Shown here piece after piece: positions 7,769 through 27,073 of a DNA stretch of 46,020 nt. Made by a program: the position numbers and the translations under genes. The stretch is from contig JAPSIA010000009.1 in the NCBI GenBank assembly GCA_031179215.1, forward strand, positions 1 through 46,020, read 5' to 3'. How positions within the stretch are numbered: position 1 is the first letter of the stretch; the number at the start of each line of letters is the position of its first letter. The notes below the pieces were generated by a model that saw only the letters and a program-made list of their open reading frames with translations, ran no database searches and was not told where the DNA came from. This stretch comes from Agrococcus sp. GTDB taxonomy: Bacteria; Actinomycetota; Actinomycetes; Actinomycetales; Microbacteriaceae.

Positions 7769-8731
7769 ATGACCTCCACGTCGCAGCGACCTGAGCATCG
7801 GGGACTCCGGAATCAGTGGCGACGAGCGTGGTCGACGCGCAAATCCGGTGCTTCGGCGCTGTCGGCCCCGATGCGCCGCGAGCTCGAGACGAAGTACGGC
7901 GACCTCACGCACCTGCGACGCGTGGGCACGAGGCCTCCGCTGCGCGAATACCTCACCGAGCTCGTCGACCGCCGGCACTTCATCTGGGCGGGCGCGCGCG
8001 GCGAGGCACTCACGCGCTACTCCAACGAGCGGCTCGGCATGGCGTGGTACGTGCTGCGACCCCTGCTGGATGCCGCCTTCTACTGGGTCATCTTCGGCGT
8101 GATCCTCGACATGTCGCGCGGCATGGAGAACTACACCGCCTTCATCCTCATCGGCGTGTTCATGTTCCAGCTCTCCTCCCGTGCGATCACGGGCGGCGTC
8201 GGGCTCATCCGCAGCTCGAAGGCGATGATCCGCGCCTTCGCGTTCCCTCGCGCATCGCTCGGGTTCTCGATGGTGCTGCGCGACCTCATGAGCTCGATGC
8301 CGGCGATCGCGGTGATGATCGTCATGATCATCGCGATCCCTCCGCACGAGGCGCCGAACGTCGCCTGGTCGTTCTTCCCCATCATTCTCGGCCTGCAGCT
8401 CGCGATGAGCCTCGGCTTCGTGTTCTTCTTCGGTTGGTTGGGCGCCATCATGCCCGACCTCGCGCAGGCGATGAGCTTCGTCTCGCGACTGCTCATGTAC
8501 GCATCCGCCGTCATCTTCCCGATCGAGCGGTTCGTCGACCACCCGACGCTGCTCGCGATCATCCAGCTGAACCCCATCTACGTCGTGCTCGACATGTACC
8601 GGATGACGCTCATCGACGGCGCGGCACCGCCCGTCGACGACTGGCTGCAGCTCGGAGCGTGGGCGCTCGGCGCCCTCGTGGTGGGCTTCACGCTGTTCTG
8701 GTGGAACGAGGAGCGCTATGGCCGCGAGTGA
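7769..8731 (+). CDS. ABC-2 type polysaccharide export permease (TagG/Wzm-like)
   Basis: Multi-TM protein; RYSNERLGMAWYVLRPLLDAAFYWVIFGVIL and downstream ATPase with overlapping reading frames. Confidence 0.8.
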   Translation: MTSTSQRPEHRGLRNQWRRAWSTRKSGASALSAPMRRELETKYGDLTHLRRVGTRPPLREYLTELVDRRHFIWAGARGEALTRYSNERLGMAWYVLRPLLDAAFYWVIFGVILDMSRGMENYTAFILIGVFMFQLSSRAITGGVGLIRSSKAMIRAFAFPRASLGFSMVLRDLMSSMPAIAVMIVMIIAIPPHEAPNVAWSFFPIILGLQLAMSLGFVFFFGWLGAIMPDLAQAMSFVSRLLMYASAVIFPIERFVDHPTLLAIIQLNPIYVVLDMYRMTLIDGAAPPVDDWLQLGAWALGALVVGFTLFWWNEERYGRE

Positions 8732-9557
8732 GCTCCAGGGCGGTTGGCGCCTCAGCGGCGAGCCCAAGGTGACGATCGCCGCCGAGAACGTGCGCCTGCG
8801 CTACACCGTCAGCCGCTCGAACGGCAGCGCGTGGTGGCGCCGCGGCGGCAAGAAGGCCGTCACCGGGCCCGTGCTGCGCGGCGTCTCGATGGCCGCCAGA
8901 GAGGGCGAGATGATCGGCCTCGTCGGGCTCAACGGCTCGGGCAAGAGCTCGCTGCTGCGCGTGCTCGCCGGCCTGCAGCCCGCGACCTCTGGCACCGTCG
9001 TCGCCTCCGCCCAGCCGCAGCTGCTTGGCGTGAGCGCCGCGCTCGTCCCCGAGCTCTCCGGCGAGGAGAACATCTGGCTCGGCACGCTCGCGATGGGCAT
9101 GACGCCCGACGACGCCTACTTCGCGAAGGAGCGCATCGAGCAGCTCGCGGGCATCGGCGACGCCATCAAGCAGCCGATGAAGACGTACTCGTCGGGCATG
9201 GCCGCGCGGCTGCGGTTCGCGATCTCAGTCGCCGCCGACCCCGAGATCCTCATGATCGACGAAGCGCTCTCCACCGGCGATGCCTCCTTCGCCGAGCGCG
9301 CGAAGGAGGCGATGCACGGCCTCATCACGCGCGCCGGCACGGTCTTCCTCGTCAGCCACGCCGCGAAGACGATCGAGGACATGTGCACGCGCGCAATGTG
9401 GCTCGATGCCGGCACGCTCATCGCCGACGGCCCGGCAGGCGAGGTCGCCAACATGTACCGCTACTACGCCCACAGCATCGCGCTCGGCAAGGACGAAGCC
9501 GCGAAGAACGCGCTGCTGAGCGCCACCGAAGCGCATCCCCCATCCCTCGCCCACTAG
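8718..9557 (+). CDS. Polysaccharide ABC transporter ATPase (TagH/Wzt-like, no C-terminal glycan-binding domain)
   Basis: Walker A GLNGSGKSSLLR, signature YSSGMAARLRF, Walker B ILMIDEALS. Confidence 0.9.
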   Translation: MAASELQGGWRLSGEPKVTIAAENVRLRYTVSRSNGSAWWRRGGKKAVTGPVLRGVSMAAREGEMIGLVGLNGSGKSSLLRVLAGLQPATSGTVVASAQPQLLGVSAALVPELSGEENIWLGTLAMGMTPDDAYFAKERIEQLAGIGDAIKQPMKTYSSGMAARLRFAISVAADPEILMIDEALSTGDASFAERAKEAMHGLITRAGTVFLVSHAAKTIEDMCTRAMWLDAGTLIADGPAGEVANMYRYYAHSIALGKDEAAKNALLSATEAHPPSLAH

Positions 9558-9586: not shown

Positions 9587-10744
9587 ATGGCACAGCACAA
9601 GGTGATGACCGTCTACGGCACGCGCCCGGAGGCGATCAAGGTTGCGACCGTCATCGAGGCGCTCGAGCGCGACGACCGCTTCGAGTCGATCCCAGTGGTC
9701 ACTGGGCAGCACCGCGAGATGCTCGACCAGGTCAACACGATGTTCGGCATCACGCCCAAGCACGACCTCGACCTCATGAAGCCTGGCCAGCCCCTCAACG
9801 GCATCGTCTCCCGCGCGATCGCGGGCATCGACGAGCTCCTCGTCGCCGAGCAGCCTGACGTCGTCATCGTGCAGGGCGACACATCGACGGCCATGGCGGC
9901 CGCGATCGCGGCCTTCAACCGCCAGGTGACGGTCGTGCACCTCGAGGCGGGCCTCCGCACTGGCAACATCGACTCTCCGTTCCCCGAGGAGGCGAACCGC
10001 AAGCTCATCGGGCAGGTGGCCAAGCTTCACCTCGCGCCGACGAAGGGCTCTCGCGACAACCTCTTCCACGAATCGGTCGAGCCATCGACCATCGTGGTGA
10101 CCGGCAACACCGTCATCGACGCGCTGCTCGAGGCGTCCTCCTGGGACACCGTGCCCGGCGACCCGGCAGTCGCTGAAGCACTGGCGAGCGGCCGACCGAT
10201 CATCCTCGCGACGACGCACCGCCGCGAAAACCTGGGCGACAGCATGGACGCGATCGGTCGAGCGCTCGCGAAGCTCGCGAAGAAGCACAAGGATCACATC
10301 GTGATCCTCCCGGTGCACCGCAACCCCGTCGTGCGCGAGGCTGTCCTTCCTCATCTCGAAGGGAAGGACAACGTGATCGTCACTGAACCGCTTCCGTACG
10401 CGGAGTTCACCAAGGTCATGGCCGCGGCGCGCATCATCCTGACCGACTCGGGCGGCGTGCAGGAAGAGGCGCCCAGCCTCGGGAAGCCCGTGCTCGTGAT
10501 GCGCGAGAACACGGAGCGACCCGAAGCTGTCGACGCGGGGACTGTGCGCCTCGTGGGCACGGACTACGACCGGATCGTGTTCGAGGCCAACCATCTGCTC
10601 GAGGACGAAGGGGCCTACGAGGCCATGGCGAACGCTGTGAACCCCTACGGCGACGGGAAGGCGTCCGCTCGCTCGGTGGCCGCCATCGCGGAGCTGCTCG
10701 GTGTGGGTGAGCGCGAACCCGACTTCACTCCTCACCACGACTGA
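9587..10744 (+). CDS. wecB: UDP-N-acetylglucosamine 2-epimerase (non-hydrolysing)
   Basis: KVMTVYGTRPEAIKVATVI, VTGQHREMLDQV, VQGDTSTAMAAAIAAF, HLEAGLRTG, FPEEANRKL, LTDSGGVQEEAPSLGKPVLVMRENTERPE. Confidence 0.95.
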   Translation: MAQHKVMTVYGTRPEAIKVATVIEALERDDRFESIPVVTGQHREMLDQVNTMFGITPKHDLDLMKPGQPLNGIVSRAIAGIDELLVAEQPDVVIVQGDTSTAMAAAIAAFNRQVTVVHLEAGLRTGNIDSPFPEEANRKLIGQVAKLHLAPTKGSRDNLFHESVEPSTIVVTGNTVIDALLEASSWDTVPGDPAVAEALASGRPIILATTHRRENLGDSMDAIGRALAKLAKKHKDHIVILPVHRNPVVREAVLPHLEGKDNVIVTEPLPYAEFTKVMAAARIILTDSGGVQEEAPSLGKPVLVMRENTERPEAVDAGTVRLVGTDYDRIVFEANHLLEDEGAYEAMANAVNPYGDGKASARSVAAIAELLGVGEREPDFTPHHD

Positions 10745-12468: not shown

Positions 12469-13278
12469 TCACGAGTTCCGGGATCGACTCAATACCTCGT
12501 CGACTACGGCAATGAGCTGCTCCTTTGGAGGGCGGGCGTGACCCGGTCCCCAGTCGCCCACAATGAGGCGCATTCTTGCAGGGTCCACCGCGTCCATGAA
12601 GGGCTTCTGATGGTGCTCAATGTGGTGCAGATCGTTCTGGTTCTGAAGGTACACGATGTTCACATCAGGAGAATCGACCGCATACCGACCGACGAGGTCA
12701 TGCGTGACGAGTGTGCCTAGTCCAACCGCAATCGAGCTATCGTCGCCTGACAGTCCCCACGAGTGCCTTCCGTAAGCGGACCACCACCGCGGGTAGAACT
12801 TCAGTATGTCCGTCTGCGGATTCGCGACGATGACGGAGCTGCCGGGATGCAGCCGCGCGAGATTGAGGGCGGCAAACCCCCCTCCCGAACCACCGAAGAA
12901 GACTACGCGAGGCGCCCCGGCCAACGCGATGAGCTTGGCAACGAACGCAGAGATCAAGTCGAAACTGATGGCGCGCGAGCCGGCGAACCACGCAAGGAGC
13001 ACATCCTCGCTCAGCGACGGATCCGAGACCAGGATCCGATTGGCTTTTCGAGCGGCGAGCGTTGCTCCCGTGAAGTACGGCGTGGAGAACGTTCGTTTGT
13101 TGAGGGCTGCATGAAAAGACACGAAAGTGACATCCGCGCCGACGAAGTCGACCATCGCATCGAGCGCATGCAGTTCATCGAGGCGCACGGAGATGATGTG
13201 CTCGCCCCGATTGAAGCAAACGGACGAGATATCGGTATAAACGCGCTCAGGGCGCCTCCAACGACTAACGTCTCTCAT
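12469..13278 (-). CDS. Stand-alone alpha/beta-hydrolase-like protein (FGGSGGGFAAL elbow)
   Basis: VVFFGGSGGGFAALNLARLHPGSSVIVANPQTDI, QNQNDLHH, GPGHARP; SD AGGAAG upstream of ATG. Paralogous to the C-terminal domain of CDS 19763-22648. Confidence 0.7.
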   Translation of the reverse strand: MRDVSRWRRPERVYTDISSVCFNRGEHIISVRLDELHALDAMVDFVGADVTFVSFHAALNKRTFSTPYFTGATLAARKANRILVSDPSLSEDVLLAWFAGSRAISFDLISAFVAKLIALAGAPRVVFFGGSGGGFAALNLARLHPGSSVIVANPQTDILKFYPRWWSAYGRHSWGLSGDDSSIAVGLGTLVTHDLVGRYAVDSPDVNIVYLQNQNDLHHIEHHQKPFMDAVDPARMRLIVGDWGPGHARPPKEQLIAVVDEVLSRSRNS

Positions 13279-13332: not shown

Positions 13333-16137
13333 TCACCGCCCGCATGGCACCGAGGTCCTCGAGGTGTTCTCGCCTGAATCAGATCCTATGTCTTGAGGCG
13401 CTGGCACCCCGTCGATGCTCAACAGCGTCTTGAAGTGATGCGACATCCGGTCACTCACGCGGTGCCCCATCGACCATGCCGGCGTGAACTCGTAGTCGAC
13501 CATCGAACGCCAACCGCGCATTGGCTCCTCCTGCCCCTTCACCGGCGCCACGAGCTCCGCCTTGTGCAGGGCGGAGATGTGGAGCGCGCGGCCGTTGGAG
13601 AGCGTGAAGGTCACCTGTCCATCCGTCGACCGTGGATCGGTCAGGCTTTCCGGAAGATTCCACCAGACCTGAAAGTCGTGGGGCTGCCCGTCTTGACTCG
13701 TCACTTCGTCGTCGATGAGGAGCCAGCTGCCCGGCAGGTAGGTGATGCTGCGGCGATGACTCCAGACCCCGTGATCGACGAAGCCGACGAGGCGGAATTT
13801 CGAGCCCTCCTGCTCGCCCGAGCGGATGCCCGAACCATAGGGCGCGCGATGGCGGCGCTCGTGGTCGCGGCCGTCGGCCTCGACGGTGTTGTGCGCGCGC
13901 GTCCGCTCCACATACTGCCGCTCCGGGCGGCCGTAGAAGAAGCCCTGGTCGCGGAGCGGCGAATCGGCCGGCAGCTGGTCGAGGTAGCCAAAGCGGCCCG
14001 CGTCGATGAGCAGCTCCTCACCCGCGTCGAACCACGTGATCGACAGGTCGTCGCAGTGCTTGTGCGTCCGGGAGTGGAACCCCGCCATGAGCGTGAGGTA
14101 GCCAGCGGAGCGGTGATCGTCGCGGCCGACCGGCTGCGGGGAACGCACGAACGCGTATCCCGACTGCTCGAGCAGCAGCAGCTCCTGCGGGTTCGGCTCG
14201 CCGACCGCGCCCTCGCGTACGAGGAAGGCGGTGTGCGGCGCTGCCATCTCCCGGTCCGAGCGCTGGGCCACGCGCGCGGGGGAATCGCCGATCTGCACGA
14301 CCGAGCGATCCGGCCGCAGGAACCACCCCATGACCTCGCTCGCGCGCTCAATGCGCTCGGCGACCTCGGGGTCGGTGAGCAGGCCGTCCTGCATCGCACC
14401 GATGAACGACGACAGCAGCATCCGGTGGTAGTCCGGCGAGTGCTCCAGATGCCCTCCGTCCTCGGCGAACTGCGTCGCCACGACGGTGCGCAGGCGATCC
14501 CGCCCCTGCGCCTCGACGATGTCCATGCCCGGCAGGACCGCGAGCCGCCGAGCGAAGCTCAACTGACCGACCGCGGTGTAGAAGCCGTGGTTGTTGGCCG
14601 CGTTGAACGCCTGCGGTGCGAAGAGCGCTCGCTGATGCCTCACGACGGCGCTCGCGAGGGCGGCGATGATGTCTTCGCCCGCTGCTTCGCGCACGGCTTC
14701 CTGCAGGAGATAGGCAAGCCGCGGCGCGCGCAGTCCGATCGCCATGTCGTACCAGGCCATCGTGCCGCGATCCTCGCCGTCGTTGAACGTCCGGGCCCAG
14801 TCGGCGGCGCGCTGCAGACACCAGTCCAGCGCCTCGCGATCGCGGTCGCGTTCCCACGCTCGGAGGAACGGCACCATGAAGTCCCAAGCGTGCAGGTGGA
14901 ACGCCTGCGAACGATGATCGCGGCACGCCTCGATCCAGTCGAAGGGCACCGTGATCAGCACAGGCTCGAGCCCCGCGTGGCGCCATCCGACGTCGCGCAC
15001 GCTCTGGACGGTGCCGGATCCGGCGAAGGTCTCGATGGTGCCCAGCTGCTTGCGCTCGGCGGTCCGCAGCGCCTTGATCGCCTGCTCGCTCGACAGCGAG
15101 AGGCGCGCGAGCGCGGCGCTGCCCTGCTCTACCGCGCCGACGCTCTCCAGCACTGCGGCCCATGCGTCCGCATCGTCGTCGGCGGCGATCGTGATGCGAT
15201 CGGCGGCGGCGCCGAGATCGACGAGGGCGTCCCGCAGCGCGGTGCTCGGCACGACGACGGCGTCGACTACGCTCGCCAGCTCCAGCTCACGCTCGCGTCG
15301 CAGGCTCCACACGTCCGGCATCCCCCACGCGTTCGGCACCTGCGCCTCGGACCACCCGTGCTTCGCGCGCTGCCGCTTGAGCCAGGATTCCTCCCACAGC
15401 CCGCGAACGTCGTAGACGACCGGGATGCCGTACGCGCGTCCGACCGCGTGCGCGGCGCTGCCGTTGACGAAGTCAGAGGAGGCGACGAGCACGGCTGGCT
15501 GCAGCTTGCGAACGACTGCTGCGAGACGAATCGTGAAGAGTCGCATCCACTCGTCGAACGCCCGCGACCCGCGGGCAGGGCCGGGGATCCGCTGGTAGCG
15601 CACGCCGTCGCGCTCGTCGACGTCGTAGCTCGAGCGGCCCGCGACGCCCATCTGCGTTGCGACGAAGATCTCCAGTCCGACGGCTCGCCCGGACCGCGCG
15701 AGCGCGTGAGTGCGTGAGGTGGAGCTCGATTCCGCGTCGAGCACGGAGCTGCTGGCGACGACGAGCGCCCGTCCCCGCACGCCCGCGTACGGACGCTCGG
15801 GCCTGGGCGGCTCGAGCGCGAGCTCGCCGCCCAGGACCGCGAGCTCGGCCGCGACGAGCGCACCTGTCGGCGGCGCATCCTCGCTCGCACGGCGATCGAT
15901 GATCTCCCCGAGGACGAGCGCTCGACGGAGGTAGCCTTGCTCTCGCAGGGCCGCGAACAACCGCCTCAGATCCTGCAGCGAGAGCTCCTCGTGGGCCTCG
16001 CGCTCGCGTAGGATCTCAAACGCTGGCACTGCCCGCTCCGTCGCCAGGAGGCCCGCGAGCACATCCGGCAGCCAGCGGTCGAGCCCATCCGCCTGCACGT
16101 CATGCTTCGTCGAGCGTGGCGCGGCCTCCGGCTTCAC
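13333..16137 (-). CDS. Fusion: truncated GT4 N-terminal domain + heparinase II/III-like domain
   Basis: Residues ~1-340 resemble the GT4 encoded at 16134-18416 (YGIPVVYDVRGLWEESWLKR); then NNHGFYTAVGQLSFARRL, GGHLEHSPDYHRM, HKHCDDLSITWFDAGEELLIDAGRFGY. No signal peptide. GTG start in a GTGA overlap with upstream stop. Confidence 0.75.
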   Translation of the reverse strand: MKPEAAPRSTKHDVQADGLDRWLPDVLAGLLATERAVPAFEILREREAHEELSLQDLRRLFAALREQGYLRRALVLGEIIDRRASEDAPPTGALVAAELAVLGGELALEPPRPERPYAGVRGRALVVASSSVLDAESSSTSRTHALARSGRAVGLEIFVATQMGVAGRSSYDVDERDGVRYQRIPGPARGSRAFDEWMRLFTIRLAAVVRKLQPAVLVASSDFVNGSAAHAVGRAYGIPVVYDVRGLWEESWLKRQRAKHGWSEAQVPNAWGMPDVWSLRRERELELASVVDAVVVPSTALRDALVDLGAAADRITIAADDDADAWAAVLESVGAVEQGSAALARLSLSSEQAIKALRTAERKQLGTIETFAGSGTVQSVRDVGWRHAGLEPVLITVPFDWIEACRDHRSQAFHLHAWDFMVPFLRAWERDRDREALDWCLQRAADWARTFNDGEDRGTMAWYDMAIGLRAPRLAYLLQEAVREAAGEDIIAALASAVVRHQRALFAPQAFNAANNHGFYTAVGQLSFARRLAVLPGMDIVEAQGRDRLRTVVATQFAEDGGHLEHSPDYHRMLLSSFIGAMQDGLLTDPEVAERIERASEVMGWFLRPDRSVVQIGDSPARVAQRSDREMAAPHTAFLVREGAVGEPNPQELLLLEQSGYAFVRSPQPVGRDDHRSAGYLTLMAGFHSRTHKHCDDLSITWFDAGEELLIDAGRFGYLDQLPADSPLRDQGFFYGRPERQYVERTRAHNTVEADGRDHERRHRAPYGSGIRSGEQEGSKFRLVGFVDHGVWSHRRSITYLPGSWLLIDDEVTSQDGQPHDFQVWWNLPESLTDPRSTDGQVTFTLSNGRALHISALHKAELVAPVKGQEEPMRGWRSMVDYEFTPAWSMGHRVSDRMSHHFKTLLSIDGVPAPQDIGSDSGENTSRTSVPCGR

Positions 16138-18416
16138 GTGGTCACCGTCTCGTGGTCAGGCAGGCGCATCCCTAGTGATCGATAGAGCTCGAGGTAGGTG
16201 GCGGCGTTCCGATCCCACGTGCGCTCGCGGCGCACCCACTCCGCACCCTGCTCACCCATCGTGCGGAGGCGTTGCGGGTCGCCCAGGAGCTGCGCGAGGC
16301 GCAGCGCGAGGTCATGCGGGTCCCCAGCTCGAAAGAGCCCAGCGGCGCCGCTGTCCTCGGCGATCTCCGCGAGCGCCCGCACGTCGGAGAAGAGGCAGGG
16401 CAGCTTAGCAGCCATCGCCTCGAACGGCTTGAGCGGCGTGACGAGCTCAGTCACCGCCGCGGACTTGCGCGGCACGACGAAGAGGTCGATGAGCGCGTAG
16501 TAGTCGTGCACGCGCTCATGCGGCACTCGCCCGGTGAAGTGGACTCGGTCGGCTCCGAGCGAGGCGGCGAGCTCGCGAAGAGAGTCGAGCTCGGGCCCAT
16601 CTCCGACGACTAGTAGCTGCACGTCGCGCTTTCCCAGCTGAGCGGCGGCGTGCGCCAGCGGCGTCTGCCGGTCCTGATCGGCGTGCGCCTCCATCGCCTC
16701 CCGGAGCGTGTGCACACCGCGCACGAGCGTATCGATGCCCTCGTACTCCACGATCGAGGAGACGTAGCCGACCACGATGCTGTCGGCGCCGATGCCGACG
16801 GACGCTCTGAGCGCCGCATCCGGCGTCGACGCGGCGAAGCTCGCTACATCCACCGCGTTCGAGGCGATGCTGACGGGGGGCACCGAAAGGCCCAGCCGCT
16901 CCCCCACCTGACGGATGTGCCGCTCCATCACCCGGGCGAGCGTCACGACCGCGTCGGACTCGCTGCGTGCGTGGGCCTCCCGCTCGACGCGGAGCCGGTA
17001 CATGTCCGGCAAGCCCCACCGTCGCTCGATCTCACCGAGATCGTCCCATCCCTCGGCGCGCGCGGTGCGCGACAGCCAGCTCTCCTCCCAAAAGCCGCGC
17101 GTCTCGTTGACGAGTGGGATCCCGTAGGCGCGAGCCACGGGCAGGGCGATGAGGGCGTTGATGAAGTCGGAGTGGACGTGCAGCACCGCGGGCCGTTCCT
17201 CGCGCACGACTCCGGCGAGCGCCTCGACGTTCGCTGACAGCCACTTGTCCCACGGGACCCGACCGCGCTCCGGGCCGCCGAGCGCGATGTAGGGCACGTG
17301 GTCGTGGTGATAGCGCTGCGTTTCGGGCCCAGATTCCGGACCGGACCCCGAATGCGTGACGACGATCGCGTTGATGCCCGCTCGACGCTGCGCCTCGACG
17401 GTGTAGTGCGTCCGCAGGGTGTAGCCCGATTGCGTGGTCGGCAGCGCCTTTCCCACCACGTGCATCACCACGTCCTGGCGCCGCGGTCCTGTCATGGAGG
17501 GCAATGTGTGGTCGAGCTCGAGCGCTCCCGAGTACAGCGCGAGCTCCGAAGCCATGACGCGCGCCATCTCCACGTCGGCGGGCTTGCTCATGCGAGCCGC
17601 GATCTCGCTGATCAGTGGCACTGCCCGGCTCATATACCCCGCGCGACGCAGCGCTCGCAGCAGCGAGCGCGCCTCGGCGTTCGTGAGCTGCTCGACGACT
17701 TCAGGGAAGGCGTCCATGAAAGGGATCGCCTCGAGCGCCTCGCTTCCGTGTGCTGCAGCAGCGACACGGTATTCGGCCAGCGGTCGTGTGACGATCTCGG
17801 TGAGGGAGAGGCCCTGCCGCTCAGCGAGCGCGACGACCGCGTCGACCACTTCGCCGGCGCGGTTCATCGTCGCGGAAGACGGCGACTCCGCCAAGCGGAC
17901 CTCGAGCTTCTTGATGCGAGCGCTCGCCGCAGCGAGCTCCTTGCCCGTCTCCAGCGCGCGCACCCGCCTCTGCAGGCGCGCGACCTCTGCTTCGAGAACC
18001 TCGACGGCCTCGTCGTGCTTCTTGAGCGATGCGTGGAGGCGTTCCTCGAGCTGGCGGACATCGCCAGACGTCCGATCTGCGCCATCTTGCAGGGCGCTGA
18101 CTGCAAAGGAGAGGCTCTCGACGCGCTCCAGGCGCTCGTTGGCCTGCTCGAGCGCGGTCCGTCCCGCGGTGACGTCGCTCTCGAGGGCGCTGATGCGCGC
18201 GGAACGCCCCCGCTCGCGGGCGCGCACGGATCGTGCACCGGCGAGGAGCCCGGCCACCACGACGATCAGGAGGATGACGGTGACCAGGGCGAGCGCGATC
18301 AACAGGCCGTCGGCTCGTGAGATCGCGAGCGTGGTGAGCAACCCGACCCCGACAGAACTCAGCGCAGCGACTGAGGCTGCGGCGAGCAGGAGCCAAGGGC
18401 GTGTGCGGGTTCGCAT
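16134..18416 (-). CDS. Membrane-anchored coiled-coil GT4 glycosyltransferase
   Basis: Two N-terminal hydrophobic helices, long heptad-rich segment, then ALPTTQSGYTLRTHYT, VNETRGFWEESW, GRVPHERVHDYYALIDLFVVPR, PLKPFEAMAA. Confidence 0.8.
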   Translation of the reverse strand: MRTRTRPWLLLAAASVAALSSVGVGLLTTLAISRADGLLIALALVTVILLIVVVAGLLAGARSVRARERGRSARISALESDVTAGRTALEQANERLERVESLSFAVSALQDGADRTSGDVRQLEERLHASLKKHDEAVEVLEAEVARLQRRVRALETGKELAAASARIKKLEVRLAESPSSATMNRAGEVVDAVVALAERQGLSLTEIVTRPLAEYRVAAAAHGSEALEAIPFMDAFPEVVEQLTNAEARSLLRALRRAGYMSRAVPLISEIAARMSKPADVEMARVMASELALYSGALELDHTLPSMTGPRRQDVVMHVVGKALPTTQSGYTLRTHYTVEAQRRAGINAIVVTHSGSGPESGPETQRYHHDHVPYIALGGPERGRVPWDKWLSANVEALAGVVREERPAVLHVHSDFINALIALPVARAYGIPLVNETRGFWEESWLSRTARAEGWDDLGEIERRWGLPDMYRLRVEREAHARSESDAVVTLARVMERHIRQVGERLGLSVPPVSIASNAVDVASFAASTPDAALRASVGIGADSIVVGYVSSIVEYEGIDTLVRGVHTLREAMEAHADQDRQTPLAHAAAQLGKRDVQLLVVGDGPELDSLRELAASLGADRVHFTGRVPHERVHDYYALIDLFVVPRKSAAVTELVTPLKPFEAMAAKLPCLFSDVRALAEIAEDSGAAGLFRAGDPHDLALRLAQLLGDPQRLRTMGEQGAEWVRRERTWDRNAATYLELYRSLGMRLPDHETVTT

Positions 18417-19762: not shown

Positions 19763-22648
19763 TCAAGCCTGCCGCTGCGGGCGCCGCGAAGCGATCCGGT
19801 CGTAGACCCCGCCCATCACCGCACCGTACTCGTCATTGGCGAGAGCTCGGTGCCCAGGGCCGAGGTCGTAGCGGATCTCATCCAGGAAAGTTGCAGCGCG
19901 GCCGCGCAAGAACGCCCGCAGGGGCGCAGCATGTGCCTTCTCATGGAAGAGATCGCCGGAATTCATCACGAGCGTCACGTTCATTTCCGCTCCGAGTTCA
20001 TCGACGCGGCGCATGACGTCGATGCGAGGGACCAGCGAGGACGTCGCGTCTAACTCGCGGACGCCGAACGCCGCAATCATCGCCGCGCGGTATGCGACAA
20101 CGTTGTAGCGACGCAGGTCGGTCTGCGGGTTCATCGCGACCACGTGCGACCCGGGGAGGTGTGCGCCCACCTGCAGCGCCGCGAATCCACCTCCGGAACT
20201 ACCTTGCAGCACAACTTTCGAAGTACCAAGCGACCGCGCGATTTCCTGCACCGCGCGAGCGATCGCTGGTGCCAGGTCAACACGTTCGTGGCCGAGATAC
20301 CAGCCCAACCGCAGTTCTCGAGCCAGGTCGAGCGTCGGGTCGCCGAACGCCACTGTCGGGCCAGCCTGCAGCTCTTTCTGGAAGCGGAACCGCTGGAAGA
20401 GCGGCAAACTAGTTCTCGCCCGATCTACTGCACCGTGAAAGAGCACGGTGAGGGTGTCACCATCCGCGGGGTGAACCGCCGCCGGCAGCACGATTGAGCC
20501 CAGCGTGTACGCGAGCAGCGTCTCTTCCGAAAGCGATGGGACCACGGCATCGGCGCCACACAGCGCGATACCAGGAAGTCGCAATGTCGAGGCGCGGAAG
20601 TCCGCCCGGCCGGACCAGTTGACCAGCGCCGCTCGATCCTTTTGAACCTCGCGCGGCGTGGCGGGATGCCGAAGCGTCTCCTGAAGGTCGTTTACAGCGG
20701 CCTCGATGCCCAGGTCAATGCGTTCGTCGAGGCCGTGGTTCGCCCGGACGGCGCGCAAGCGCTCGGCAAGTGCCGCGCGTGTCGCCCTTCCGGATGCCTG
20801 CGATCCCGCCTCGCGGTTACGGGCTATCGCCTCGAGGACCGACGCGCGTACGTCCGGAGCATATGGAGCGACCGCGCTTGTACTCGCGCGGGCCCGCGAG
20901 GGTCCCGCTCCTTCAGCGTTGTCTGAATAGCCGATGACCGACGCTGCCGCTGGCTCGATCACCAATTGCTCAGCCACCCTGCCCGTGTCGATTCGGAGCC
21001 GAACCTGGCCCTTCGGAGCGCTGCGCACAGTCTCCACCTGCGGTTTGGCACCTCGGAAGCCCGCGGCGATGACGGTGATGAAGCGGAACGCCGTCCCTGT
21101 CTTGGTGAAGCGCAACGAAGGCGCCGGGGACCGCTGCTTCCATCCCGTAGCGACCCAGCCCCGCAATGGCCGTTCCTGCCCCGAGACCACGTCCCACTCC
21201 GGCCTGGAACCCGTGTAGACGACCGAAGCGCGCTTCTCACCTGCGGATAGCTCGAACCCGCGGTCGGATAGAGCCGCATCGGTGCCCGCGCCACACTGCC
21301 AATGCTGCACTACGGTGCAAGTTTCTTCCGACTGAACACTGTCGATCACGACCGCATACTCTCCGGACACCGAGTAGACGATTCGTCGTATCAGCCGCAC
21401 ACCCGCGTACCCGCGATCGACGAAAGTCACGTCGTAAACCGCGTCGTCAATACGGCGGGCCGTGCACGCAACCACCGACTTCGGGTCGTAATCGCGGTCG
21501 ACGACGACGGGTAGGCTGTGCGAATCGCGCCGAAGGCAGAACGCGCGCATGTCGCCGTGACCATATTGGAACTTGCCCGGGTCGGAGATCCACTCGTGAC
21601 CCATCGACGAGAAGGTCATCGAGCCGCCGTCAGCGTGGCCGTGCACGCGATCGGCGTGACCGAAGGACACTGACCAGAAGGTCTCTTCGGCGAAGTCGCG
21701 CTCCTGCTCACCCCATCCACTTCGCGCGAACAAGTAGCCGGCGTCGTAGATACGGATCAGGTCCTCGGGCGGAGCCCCATCAGCGCCGCGACTGGTGACC
21801 CAGGTCGTGGCGGGGTGTCCGACCGCCTTAACGTTCCCCCCATCCGTGTCGCCGATACCGACAAGCTTGCCGTCGGGCTTCGTGGCATGAGCAAGCTCGA
21901 TCGGCACGCGATCGAGCAGTTGCAGGCTTTCCGGAACCGGTCGTCCTTCCACCTCGAGCCGCCGACGGGCCGCGGTCCACCAAATGTAGTTCGCGAAGTG
22001 ATACGCGATGGCGCCCTCCGCGTTCACTCCCTCTTCGTCATACGCGGTCTCGAACAACGACGACATTCTGTCCTCCGCGAGCGCCATCGCCTCTTCGTTC
22101 CTCAGCACGGCACCGCAGACGAATAACCCCTGGTGCTGGTGAAGCGCGTGGTTCGAATGACCAAGATTCGACTCATCGGAAAGCCAGCGGAGGTGTTCCT
22201 CAATGCTAGGCACCAGCCACTGGAGTGCCTCCGGATCCCGCCGAACGACGAATGGCACCGCGACGCAGAGCGCAAGCGCCCTGATGCCATCCACCATGTC
22301 GCCCCAGCTTCCTGCCCACGCGGGGGCGGAGGAAGGGTTGTGGCGTACCCAACTCTCGGCATAGCGAAGCCACGTGTCCGCAGCGCCGTCGTCGCCGCGC
22401 TCGGCACGTCGGCGCAGCGGGTCGAGCCACCGCAACATGTGAAGTTGCGCATGCCAGTTGCGGTCCTGGGTCGCTTGAGCCGACCAGTCGAATGTCTCGG
22501 GTAGGGCCCACGCCGCGTGCGGCGAGAGGTCGAGGAACCCTGCTTGCACGCGCGCGGCGAGCGCCTCATCGCGGGCTGTGTGCTCGAACTTGGCGCCGAA
22601 GGACTGGCGCCGGGCGGCCTCGACATCGATGTCGATCAGAAACGTCAT
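19763..22648 (-). CDS. Fusion: heparinase II/III-like lyase + alpha/beta-hydrolase-like domain
   Basis: SWGDMVDGIRAL, SNHALHQHQGLF, NAEGAIAYHFANY, RVHGHADGGSMTFSSMGHEWISDPGKFQY (heparinase fold); C-term VVLQGSSGGGFAALQVGAHLPGSHVVAMNPQTDL, GPGH. Confidence 0.75.
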   Translation of the reverse strand: MTFLIDIDVEAARRQSFGAKFEHTARDEALAARVQAGFLDLSPHAAWALPETFDWSAQATQDRNWHAQLHMLRWLDPLRRRAERGDDGAADTWLRYAESWVRHNPSSAPAWAGSWGDMVDGIRALALCVAVPFVVRRDPEALQWLVPSIEEHLRWLSDESNLGHSNHALHQHQGLFVCGAVLRNEEAMALAEDRMSSLFETAYDEEGVNAEGAIAYHFANYIWWTAARRRLEVEGRPVPESLQLLDRVPIELAHATKPDGKLVGIGDTDGGNVKAVGHPATTWVTSRGADGAPPEDLIRIYDAGYLFARSGWGEQERDFAEETFWSVSFGHADRVHGHADGGSMTFSSMGHEWISDPGKFQYGHGDMRAFCLRRDSHSLPVVVDRDYDPKSVVACTARRIDDAVYDVTFVDRGYAGVRLIRRIVYSVSGEYAVVIDSVQSEETCTVVQHWQCGAGTDAALSDRGFELSAGEKRASVVYTGSRPEWDVVSGQERPLRGWVATGWKQRSPAPSLRFTKTGTAFRFITVIAAGFRGAKPQVETVRSAPKGQVRLRIDTGRVAEQLVIEPAAASVIGYSDNAEGAGPSRARASTSAVAPYAPDVRASVLEAIARNREAGSQASGRATRAALAERLRAVRANHGLDERIDLGIEAAVNDLQETLRHPATPREVQKDRAALVNWSGRADFRASTLRLPGIALCGADAVVPSLSEETLLAYTLGSIVLPAAVHPADGDTLTVLFHGAVDRARTSLPLFQRFRFQKELQAGPTVAFGDPTLDLARELRLGWYLGHERVDLAPAIARAVQEIARSLGTSKVVLQGSSGGGFAALQVGAHLPGSHVVAMNPQTDLRRYNVVAYRAAMIAAFGVRELDATSSLVPRIDVMRRVDELGAEMNVTLVMNSGDLFHEKAHAAPLRAFLRGRAATFLDEIRYDLGPGHRALANDEYGAVMGGVYDRIASRRPQRQA

Positions 22649-22699: not shown

Positions 22700-24871
22700 C
22701 TACCGTCCCATGCGAAGCAACTCTTCGTAGCTCGCAGCGACGGTCGCGGAGATGCGCCTCCAATCCCGATGCTCGACGACCCAGTCGCGCGCTTGCCGTC
22801 CGATGCGGTGTCGCAGCTCGGGGTCATCGAGCAACCTCGTCAGTTCGGTCTGCAAACTCCGGGCGTCACCCTTGGCGTGCAGGAAGCCGTTCTGCCCGGG
22901 CGTGACAATCTCTGCCAGCGCCGCCACATCGGATGCCACCACCGCCTTGCCCATCGCCATTGCCTCGAAGGGCTTGAGCGGCGAAACCATCTCGCACACA
23001 GGGAGCGGCAGGCGCGGGAACGGCGCGATGTCGACGAGCGAGTAGTAGCGCTCGACGTCCTCGTGCGGGACTCGGCCGGTGAATGTCACAACGTCGTCGA
23101 GGCCCTCGTCGTAGACCCTAGCTTGGAACCGCTCGAGCTCCGCGCCGTCGCCCACGAAGAGCACGTGGAAGTCGGAGCGCACAGCCGCGAGCTCTGCGGC
23201 CGCGTCGATCAGCAGCTCCAAGCCCTCGTAGTCGAGGATCGAGCCGATGTAGCCGATGACCGTCTTGTCCTGCACGCCGAGCTCGCGCGCGAGCGTCTCA
23301 TCACGGGCGATCGGCTGGAATCGGCTGGAGTCGACACCGTTCGGCAGCACAGTGATCTTGTCGCCATCGACGCCACGGGCGATCATTTCGTCGCGCAGCG
23401 CGTTCGTGATCGTGAAGACCTTGGTCGCCCCACGTGCCGCGTCGGCCTCCATGCGCGCGATGTAGCGGAACATGTTGCTCTGCGCCCACTCCGGGTTTCG
23501 GGAGCCGCGAGTCACCTCCCACAAGCCGCGCACCTCGTAGATCGAGGGCAAGCCAAGCTCGTTCGCGGCCGCCACCGCCGTGAGCCCGTTCCAGTGGTTC
23601 GAGGCCGCGTGGATGATCGCTGGACGCCCTCGCAGCGCCAGCTCCTGCAGCGCGGCCCGGTAGCGCTGCACGTAGAAGTAGAGCGGGTTCTTCTTCTCGA
23701 TCTCGCGACCCGCGAGCAGGCGCAGGTAGTCGACGCCGTCGATCTCATCATGCGGCGGCACGTCGAGCACGTCTTCCTTGCCGGGCATGTCGAACGGGTA
23801 ACCGAGTCGCGTGACGCCGTCGACGTCCCAGCCGGCGCGGTTCAGTCCGCTCAGTAGCCCGTGGGTGCGAGTCGCATACCCCGCTGAGTTGTAGGGCAGG
23901 CTGTTGTGCAGCAGGTAGAAGACCTTGCGCGGCGCTGGCTCGTACGCCGGTTCAGTGGCGCGCGGAGGGAACGGGAAACCGGACTTCCCGAGCCGATAGT
24001 TCGAGAACTCTCGTTCACCCAAAGCCTTCAGGGTGCGCTTCGACCAGACGTCGCCGGGCAACAGCTTCGAGTACACCGTCAGATAGGCGCGGGCCTGCTT
24101 GCTGCGGTCTGCCGCGAGCGCGCGCCGGATCGCGCGACGCAGAGAGTTCATCGGTACCGCGGCCGGAGCCATCGCCTCGATGTGCTGCACGGCGCGGCCG
24201 GACTTGCCTCGGCCGAGCAGCACGATCGCGACAGCCCGGTCAGCCTCGTTCGCCGAGAGGCCCGCCGTCGCTGCGCGGAGGGCGTCCTCGGGAAGGTCGG
24301 CATCGGTTCGGAGCGCCCGATCCAGTGCGATCACGGCTCGCGAGACGGGATCCGGGCTCGTGGCGAGGACCGCCTCCGCGTCCGTGAGCTGGTGCGGGAT
24401 GACGAAGTCCAGCGCACCTCGGTGAGCGCCAGGATGCGCCGCCAGGTCAGCGACCATGCGGCCGAGCGCCCAGCGGAAGTGTCGTTGCGGGCGGTTGCGC
24501 CTGCGAAGCACCTCTGAGAAGAGCTCGATCGCGTCGGGATTCGCGCCGTTCACGGCGATCGACGCGGCGAGGACCTCCTCGGCACCCGCGGAATTGGATC
24601 GGGCAATGAGGTGGCGTGCGTACTCGACGGCCGGCGCTCCCCACTCCGGAGCGAGCGCGATCGCCTCGCGAAAGCGCACTTCGGCTCGCGCGTCTTTGCT
24701 GTCGCGCGAAGCGGCCCGCGCCTCTTCCAAGGCCGCCGCGGCCGCGTCACGCTGCTCGGGCATCGCGGCGCTCGAAGCGGGCGTCGGGCGAGCAGGCGCT
24801 TCGCTGCCACCACCGAGGCGGCGCAACGCTCGTCGGCCGAGACCGCCGAGCCCGTTGGAGCTCAACGCCAC
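22700..24871 (-). CDS. GT4 glycosyltransferase with N-terminal TPR-like extension
   Basis: SLPYNSAGYATRTHGLL, YEVRGLWE, LPNGVDSSRF, GRVPHEDVERYYSLVDIAPFPR, SPLKPFEAMAMG; GTG at 24871 overlaps the wecC stop. Confidence 0.8.
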   Translation of the reverse strand: MALSSNGLGGLGRRALRRLGGGSEAPARPTPASSAAMPEQRDAAAAALEEARAASRDSKDARAEVRFREAIALAPEWGAPAVEYARHLIARSNSAGAEEVLAASIAVNGANPDAIELFSEVLRRRNRPQRHFRWALGRMVADLAAHPGAHRGALDFVIPHQLTDAEAVLATSPDPVSRAVIALDRALRTDADLPEDALRAATAGLSANEADRAVAIVLLGRGKSGRAVQHIEAMAPAAVPMNSLRRAIRRALAADRSKQARAYLTVYSKLLPGDVWSKRTLKALGEREFSNYRLGKSGFPFPPRATEPAYEPAPRKVFYLLHNSLPYNSAGYATRTHGLLSGLNRAGWDVDGVTRLGYPFDMPGKEDVLDVPPHDEIDGVDYLRLLAGREIEKKNPLYFYVQRYRAALQELALRGRPAIIHAASNHWNGLTAVAAANELGLPSIYEVRGLWEVTRGSRNPEWAQSNMFRYIARMEADAARGATKVFTITNALRDEMIARGVDGDKITVLPNGVDSSRFQPIARDETLARELGVQDKTVIGYIGSILDYEGLELLIDAAAELAAVRSDFHVLFVGDGAELERFQARVYDEGLDDVVTFTGRVPHEDVERYYSLVDIAPFPRLPLPVCEMVSPLKPFEAMAMGKAVVASDVAALAEIVTPGQNGFLHAKGDARSLQTELTRLLDDPELRHRIGRQARDWVVEHRDWRRISATVAASYEELLRMGR

Positions 24872-26115
24872 AGGCCCTTGGTGTCGACGACGATCTTCTC
24901 GGCGAGCAGCTCCCGATCGAGCGTCTTGAACTGGTGGTGGTCCACGAGCACGAGAACGATGTCGGCGCGCGCAATCGCGTCTTCGACTTCCGCGAGCGCG
25001 ACGTTCGGGCGCTGCGAGAGCGGCACCGGCAGCTCGTCGACGTTGGGCTCCGCCACGAGGACCGTCGCGTGCTCCATCTCCGAGGAGAGTCGCTCGACAA
25101 TCGCCTTCGACGGCGACTCGCGCAGGTCGTCGATGTCCGCCTTGAACGCGATGCCGAGCGCGGCGATCACGGGCTCGCGGAACTTGGCAGCCTTCGCCAT
25201 GACCTTCTCGAGCACGAAGTCGGGCTTCGAGTCGTTGACCTCCCGCGCGAGGCGCACGAGCTTCGCCTGCTCGGGCGCGGCCGAGACGATGAACCACGGG
25301 TCGACCGCGATGCAGTGGCCGCCGACGCCAGGGCCCGGCTGCAGGATGTTCACGCGCGGGTGGTGGTTGGCGAGCTCGATGAGCTCCCAGACGTCGATGC
25401 CCTGGCTCTCGGAGATGATGGAGAGCTCGTTGGCGAACGCGATGTTGACGTCGCGGAAGGCGTTCTCCGTGAGCTTCGCCATCTCGGCCGTGCGGGCGTC
25501 GGTGATGTGCAGCTGGCCCTTGCAGAAGCTTGCGTAGAGGTCGCGCGTCATCTCCGACGCCTCGTCGGTCGTGCCGCCGATGATGCGGTCGTTGTCGATC
25601 ATCTCGATCATGATGCGACCGGGGAGCACGCGCTCGGGCGCGTGCGAGAAGTAGACCGAGTTGTGCCGACCGGGCTCGTCGGTCAGGTCCGGACGCTCGG
25701 CAAGGATGACCGCCGCCATCTGCTCCGTGGCCCCGGGAGGCGACGTCGACTCGAGCACCACGAGCTCGCCGCCGTCGAGCTTGGGAGCGATGCCGCGAGC
25801 GGCTGCCTCGATATAGGAGAGGTCCGCCTCGTGGTCGCCCTTGAATGGCGTGGGGACGGAGACGATGTACGCGTCTGCCTCGGGCGTCTCGATCTGCGCG
25901 CGCAGCTTGCCCTGGGCGACGGCGCCCGCGACCACGGTCTCGAGCCCCTCCTCGACGAACGGCACGCGGCCGGCATTGATCGCGTCGACGTTCGACTGCT
26001 TCACGTCGACACCGATGACGGTCTTGCCGGCCTGGGCGAGCACCGCGGCCGTGGGCAGGCCGATGTACCCCAGCCCGATGACGCTGACGATGTCCATGGG
26101 AGTGGTGGGGCTCAC
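24862..26115 (-). CDS. wecC: UDP-N-acetyl-D-mannosamine dehydrogenase (UDP-glucose/GDP-mannose dehydrogenase family)
   Basis: VSVIGLGYIGLPTAAVLAQAGKTVIGVD, LLESTSPPGATE-like VVLESTSPPGATEQM, NAFRDVNIAFANELS, GPGVGGHCIAVDPWF; AAGGAGA 7 nt before GTG at 26115. Confidence 0.9.
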   Translation of the reverse strand: MSPTTPMDIVSVIGLGYIGLPTAAVLAQAGKTVIGVDVKQSNVDAINAGRVPFVEEGLETVVAGAVAQGKLRAQIETPEADAYIVSVPTPFKGDHEADLSYIEAAARGIAPKLDGGELVVLESTSPPGATEQMAAVILAERPDLTDEPGRHNSVYFSHAPERVLPGRIMIEMIDNDRIIGGTTDEASEMTRDLYASFCKGQLHITDARTAEMAKLTENAFRDVNIAFANELSIISESQGIDVWELIELANHHPRVNILQPGPGVGGHCIAVDPWFIVSAAPEQAKLVRLAREVNDSKPDFVLEKVMAKAAKFREPVIAALGIAFKADIDDLRESPSKAIVERLSSEMEHATVLVAEPNVDELPVPLSQRPNVALAEVEDAIARADIVLVLVDHHQFKTLDRELLAEKIVVDTKGLWR

Positions 26116-26296
26116 CGGCGAGTCTCCTTGAAGATGAGGAAGATTGCGTATCGCCTCCAGGGTATCGGTATCAGAGAGCGTTGGGCGCTGTAGCACAGGC
26201 CGTGCTGTGAAACGCCTGCTAGAGCGCAGGTGCACGCCGCACCTCGACTAGGGTTGATGGGCGCTGCGCAGCCCTGCGCCCGAGACCTGGAGCCCC

Positions 26297-27073
26297 GTGA
26301 CCGAACCCGACGCATCCGCACCGCGCGTGCTGGTCTTCGGCAGTTGCGTCGCTCGGGACACGATCGAGTTCGCGGCGTCCGACAGCGTCGACCTGCGCGG
26401 TTACGTGGCGCGGCAGTCGCTCATCTCAGCGGGTGACGACGCGAGCGCGCACCTTCCCGACTCGCTCGGCGTCTCGTCGAAGTTCCAGGAGCGGATGATC
26501 CGCAACGACTTCGCCGGCAACCTCTTCTCGCGGCTCGAGAGCCTCGCGGGCGAGATCGACGTGCTGCTGTGGGACCTCGCCGACGAGCGGCACGGCGTGC
26601 ACCGCTTCCCCGACGGGACGATCGTGACGCGCAGCATCGACACCATCCGCGCCGAGCCGGTCTCGGCGCTGCTCGAGGAGACCGAGCACATCCCCTTCGG
26701 CAGCGACGAGCACTTCGCGCTGTGGACGCAGCACGTGGATGCGTTCGACGCGCGCCTGAGGGAACTCGGGCTGTTCGATCGCACCGTCGTGCTCGAGGTG
26801 CCGTGGGCGCTGCGGACGACCGAGGGCAAGACGACGCCGTGGAGCATGGGCGTGCGCGCCGGCGACGCCAACAAGAGCTACCAGCGCTACTACGACTACC
26901 TGCGCCAGACGGGTCATCGCATGGTCGAGCTGCCGGCGGAGCTCGTGCTCGCCGACCCCGACCACCGCTGGGGGCTCGCGCCGTTCCACTACACCCCCGA
27001 GGTCTACCGCGAGGTGCTGTGGCAGCTGCGCGAGGTGCACGGCGTCGAGGGGCTGCGCGCCGCTGACCGCTGA
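26297..27073 (+). CDS. DUF6270-like protein (FGSCVARD motif)
   Basis: RVLVFGSCVARDTIEF, LLWDLADERHGV, PFHYTPEVYREV. Confidence 0.7.
   Translation: MTEPDASAPRVLVFGSCVARDTIEFAASDSVDLRGYVARQSLISAGDDASAHLPDSLGVSSKFQERMIRNDFAGNLFSRLESLAGEIDVLLWDLADERHGVHRFPDGTIVTRSIDTIRAEPVSALLEETEHIPFGSDEHFALWTQHVDAFDARLRELGLFDRTVVLEVPWALRTTEGKTTPWSMGVRAGDANKSYQRYYDYLRQTGHRMVELPAELVLADPDHRWGLAPFHYTPEVYREVLWQLREVHGVEGLRAADR

Follow-up and report, generated by a model that had tools for sequence, protein, structure and literature searches.

A glycosyltransferase half joined to a complete lyase

The window (the whole 46,020-nucleotide stretch of the Agrococcus sp. contig that was analysed) contains a gene whose 934-residue product combines half of a GT4 glycosyltransferase (GT) with a heparinase II/III-fold lyase (Table 1). 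The gene starts at a GTG that overlaps the TGA stop codon of the one directly upstream, which encodes an intact GT4, and the two genes are therefore probably translationally coupled. The locus also holds several GTs, the WecB- and WecC-type enzymes that lead to UDP-ManNAcA and a Wzm/Wzt-like exporter pair; homologues of these last three recur in most of the relatives' loci, not all of them seen within the stretches read. Given the genes for UDP-ManNAcA and the usual ABC exporter, polymer synthesis probably takes place in the cytosol; most likely the polymer contains ManNAcA and is completed there before ABC export.

Table 1. Features of the fusion gene and of the surrounding locus (positions in the window; aa, residues of the encoded protein)
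Feature	Position	Strand	Description
Whole fusion gene	13333..16137	-	934 aa, single open frame, GTG start
N-terminal helical module	15808..16083	-	aa 19-110; helices H19-102 in model; aligns with intact GT4s
GT4 GT-B N-terminal half, without donor domain	15184..15786	-	aa 118-318; PF13439/PF13579, Foldseek to GT-B enzymes
Eroded loop	15709..15732	-	aa 136-143; ESSSTSRT versus Q[ST]GYTLRT invariant in intact GT4s
Linker	14983..15183	-	aa 319-385
Lyase (alpha/alpha)6 toroid half	14194..14982	-	aa 386-648; N516, H517, Y570 predicted catalytic
Lyase C-terminal beta-sandwich half	13402..14193	-	aa 649-912; H692 predicted catalytic; H694, D696, D712, H749 predicted metal site
Intact GT4, proposed partner	16134..18416	-	2 TM, coiled coil, helical module, GT-N, GT-C
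UDP-GlcNAc 2-epimerase, WecB type	9587..10744	+	PF02350, E 1e-112
UDP-ManNAc dehydrogenase, WecC type (makes UDP-ManNAcA)	24862..26235	-	NF008286, 573 bits versus cut-off 459
ABC exporter pair, Wzm/Wzt-like	7769..9557	+	PF01061, PF00005
Second heparinase-fold protein with alpha/beta-hydrolase-like domain	19763..22648	-	961 aa

Several other genes of the locus deserve mention. The 961-residue protein keeps the catalytic N, H, Y and H and the metal residues of the heparinase fold, carries a GSSGGGF elbow with a weak XcbB/CpsF match, and recurs in most related loci; a stand-alone alpha/beta-hydrolase-like protein of 269 aa (12469-13278, reverse strand) is related to its C-terminal domain and could be placed in no family with confidence. 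A DUF6270 protein (26297-27073, forward strand, E 7e-75) adjoins the UDP-ManNAc dehydrogenase gene, and a further GT4 (22700-25297, reverse strand) has an N-terminal extension of about 450 aa that lacks a Pfam match and is partly common to two of the related loci (L007 and L046).

The fusion protein consists, in this order, of a helical module, the N-terminal half of a GT4 GT-B fold, a linker and a complete lyase. The GT half (PF13439/PF13579) is matched by Pfam Glyco_transf_4 (aa 143-317, E 1.2e-10) and Glyco_trans_4_4 (aa 141-317, E 1.3e-10), and the lyase (PF16889 and PF07940) by Hepar_II_III_N (aa 408-622, E 2e-8) and Hepar_II_III_C (aa 652-856, E 5.6e-18), all above the curated cut-offs. 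The original prediction, that the first ~340 aa resemble the adjacent GT4, holds with 35% identity over residues 38-318 (E 2.5e-39, far above chance), and can be refined into the module, GT half and linker of Table 1; the module is common to the intact GT4s of the clade, including the neighbour. The upstream GT4 has Pfam matches to both GT halves. In the fusion protein neither Glycos_transf_1 nor Glyco_trans_1_4 (GT-C) is matched, and the alignment with intact GT4s shows a clean gap where the C-terminal donor domain with its PLKPFEA motif should be, confirming that the domain bearing the predicted PLKPFEAM sequence is missing.

Structure prediction gave the same picture for both parts. The AlphaFold2 model has a mean pLDDT of 74, with most blocks of the N-terminal half at 75-95 and low confidence at residues 688-695 and 725-766, around parts of the active site of the lyase. 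Foldseek matched the N-terminal part to half of GT-B enzymes (GlgM, E 4e-6; SPS, E 2e-4), so the N-terminus is indeed a GT-B half by both profile and fold, and the C-terminal part to heparinase III/HepC (4mmh, E 2e-18), confirming the two-domain fold of an (alpha/alpha) toroid and a beta-sandwich. No signal peptide or TM segment was evident when the half-form sequence was read by eye.

Relatives and descent of the fusion

The same half-GT and lyase architecture was found in five other genomes (Phycicoccus L006, Agrococcus L007, Isoptericola L008 and Micrococcales L038 and L039), with 47-58% identity for the first three. Since the fusion is conserved in independent genomes and across genera, an assembly or frameshift artefact, the possibility raised with the original prediction, can be rejected, and the half-GT plus lyase architecture is real. 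A further relative, L040 (genome G552), has this architecture with a frameshift near the junction; the junction sequence runs on in the other, overlapping frame, and L040 was rejected as a natural split of GT half and lyase and not counted as one. Within the genus Agrococcus the fusion occurs in 2 of 24 genomes, so its distribution is patchy, and no plasmid-borne copy was found among the plasmid records searched.

Nine other genomes (L041-L049) encode this lyase fused to a whole GT4, GT-N and GT-C included, in a single frame of 1192-1407 aa. These complete fusions have a GT4 of the same clade as the halves, a lyase of the same family (42-49% identity) and a similar locus; however, they still have GT-C, the donor domain, and, as read by eye, begin with a TM hairpin ahead of the GT, and the window protein has neither. 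Directly behind the complete fusion, L043 (11653-13422) and L047 (11335-13353) carry a tandem second lyase copy without a GT, and in L052 (8635-12462, forward strand) the fusion partner of the same GT4 clade is not a lyase but another complete GT4-like domain. Unfused arrangements occur as well: L050 has GT4 and lyase as separate adjacent genes, L009 has a lone lyase, without any GT half, next to an intact GT4, and G1123, a more distant genome, has the lyase about 1 kb from a GT4 match on the other strand. Every half-type locus also has, as a separate gene, one intact GT4 of the same clade; in the window this gene lies directly upstream. In the open-licence papers searched, we found no description of a heparinase-glycosyltransferase fusion, nor of the complete GT4-heparinase fusions of the other Micrococcales.

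The GT halves are monophyletic in the GT tree (support 100/99), and in the lyase tree they group with the complete fusion L041, with moderate support (86/82). AU tests on the GT-N data reject a single clade of all fusions and halves (p 1e-5), and with it a single common origin, but are compatible with halves plus L041 (p 0.157). The lyase was therefore probably fused to this GT4 clade at least twice, and a later loss of GT-C in one of these lines is likely, with moderate support for this scenario. The lyase-proximal end of the linker in the halves resembles the junction of L041 (SRRLPV...SVKHEGWR). On this view, GT-C would have been deleted from a complete GT4-lyase fusion to give the half form, in genomes where another intact GT4 continued synthesis. 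The heparinase-like domain is present at the C-terminus, as originally predicted, but it does not seem to have replaced the GT-C domain, which appears to have been deleted from a protein that already carried the lyase.

Residue conservation in the two halves

The predicted active site of the lyase is intact: the catalytic residues N516, Y570 and H692 and the metal residues H694, D696, D712 and H749 are all present in the window protein and conserved in at least 21 of 22 relatives. Residue roles in both lyase halves were taken from a study of PL35 enzymes (PMC12088678), and the spacing matches that of His401, 403, Asp405, Asp421 and His457 of GAGase II, which were probed there by mutation. Next to the catalytic Asn516, H517 (21 of 22 relatives) corresponds to the alginate (mannuronate) lyase His described in the same work, a conserved residue of alginate lyases on which the alginate activity of GAGase III depends (PMC12088678). 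The best sequence match is the PL17 enzyme 8bdd (E 2e-5) and the best fold match the PL12 enzyme 4mmh. The window lyase thus resembles the heparinase II/III-fold lyases (PL12 HepC, PL17, PL15, PL39 and PL35) in its two-domain fold, its Asn-Tyr-His set and its His/Asp/Asp/His metal site; it differs in its low identity to them (~10-16%), its fusion to a GT half, its lack of a secretion signal and its place in a biosynthetic rather than a catabolic locus.

A comparison of 7 half-type proteins with 15 intact GT4 relatives gave a different result for the GT half. Gly138, Asn201, His218 and the TLA motif at 296-298, invariant in all 15 intact GT4s, are among the residues gone in all seven halves; Gly138 is lost with the loop Q[ST]GYTLRT, and His218 is the first His of HxHSD, ahead of SDF in the intact enzymes. 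In GT4 enzymes the Gly loop, this His and Asn201 generally line the active cleft. The halves keep G164, W197, P214, SD..N, P239, W248, W252 and E284, with exceptions mainly in L008, and conserve Q67, S131, Y171, R210 and K211 specifically. With the cleft residues gone and the structural and half-specific positions kept, the half is very unlikely to be catalytically active, and it is still constrained. It retains the N-terminal fold of the retaining GT4 GT-B enzymes (MshA, BshA, PimB', GlgM and SPS) but, without their C-terminal domain and cleft residues, is no longer an enzyme of that family.

The half also evolves faster than the lyase, with a mean identity of 48% versus 58% (L008 excluded) and dN/dS values, at near-saturated dS, of about 0.24-0.57 (pairs tested except window-L008) versus 0.15-0.29, which points to a weaker but real purifying constraint on the half. 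In the Isoptericola protein L008 (9974-12736, forward strand) the GT half is strongly eroded (branch 2.4 versus 0.35-0.7 in the others) and the lyase conserved; a docking function, if the half has one, may have been lost there.

Possible roles of the half and the lyase

As a rule, polysaccharide lyases are secreted enzymes that break down polymer of foreign origin or polymer already exported, and alginate-type systems have a separate periplasmic lyase. For the window protein, the complete GT4-lyase fusions of the relatives and the one intact GT4 in every half-type locus point to tethering of the lyase to its cognate GT4. We propose that the catalytically dead GT4 half anchors an active lyase of ManNAcA polymer at the synthase complex or on the nascent chain, where chains would be trimmed or edited, and consider this reading, with the C-terminal domain as an active uronate lyase, about as likely as not. 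On this proposal, a ManNAcA-containing polymer would be assembled on the cytosolic face, the half would bring the lyase either to the chain end or, acting as a pseudo-subunit, to the GT4 synthase complex, and the lyase docked there would cut 4-linked ManNAcA bonds by beta-elimination, so trimming or editing over-long or misassembled chains ahead of export. We hold only tentatively the broader idea that the lyase is physically coupled to the synthase that makes this polymer in the cytosol, in some lineages on one chain with a complete GT and in others through docking by the dead half, and sets chain length or edits before ABC export. The half's faster evolution relative to the lyase counts against tethering, and so do the eroded half of L008 and the lyase copies without a GT half (L009, L043 and L047), which would make the tether dispensable. 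A parallel by description, from another actinobacterium, is the teichuronic acid synthetase of Micrococcus luteus, in which two glycosyltransferases form a membrane complex that builds a ManNAcA-glucose polymer (PMC3005890); unlike the window system it has no reported lyase subunit.

The fold itself cannot distinguish a lyase from a C5-epimerase, and dermatan sulfate epimerase (DSE) shares both the fold and the active-site triad of heparinase-like lyases. A heparinase-like domain that epimerises uronic acids in the nascent chain (for example ManNAcA to L-GulNAcA) would suit the cytosolic biosynthetic setting and is consistent with the conservation of all catalytic residues; however, the nearest solved structures, by sequence and by fold, are all lyases, and we consider the epimerase unlikely.

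Another role for the GT half is the one first predicted, a glycan-binding module on the acceptor side that would hold the polymer end for the lyase without contacting a GT4. GT-B N-terminal domains usually contact the acceptor, at least six of the seven halves retain W197, SD-N (221-225), W248 and W252, and the basic pair R210-K211 is present in all seven and not conserved in the intact enzymes. Since H218, N201, G138 and the TLA motif have disappeared from every half, an intact acceptor site is nevertheless doubtful, and binding of this kind would leave the one intact GT4 per locus unexplained. The mechanism as first stated is possible but improbable: the loss of the cleft residues weakens it, and the comparison across relatives speaks rather for coupling to the GT4 itself.

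The faster evolution of the half, its strong erosion in L008 and the existence of lyases without it (L009) would also fit a vestige of the GT-C deletion, a passenger that keeps only the lyase's start codon and solubility. Such a passenger would hardly be retained in seven genomes with a dN/dS well below 1, even with near-saturated dS, or preserve the half-specific K211, R210 and Y171 even in L008, and we regard this explanation as quite unlikely. A catalytic pairing in trans with a GT-C encoded elsewhere is highly improbable: split GT-B enzymes such as Alg13/Alg14 and EpsE/EpsF do exist and also have the acceptor half as a polypeptide part of its own, but their two halves form one active enzyme (PMC8993221), whereas here the N-side cleft residues are gone, every GT-C match in the window genome (88% complete) lies within a frame of full-length size (414-1156 aa), and no stand-alone GT-C partner gene was found in that genome.

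Taken together, the arrangements run from separate genes through the complete fusion to the half fusion and clearly illustrate, in nature, the conversion of an enzyme half into a probable docking module. If tethering of the lyase to the synthase is correct, the covalent joining of a lyase to a biosynthetic GT, achieved in more than one way, would make cutting a part of cytosolic synthesis and would offer a testable model of chain-length control for ABC-exported uronic-acid polymers in Gram-positive bacteria.
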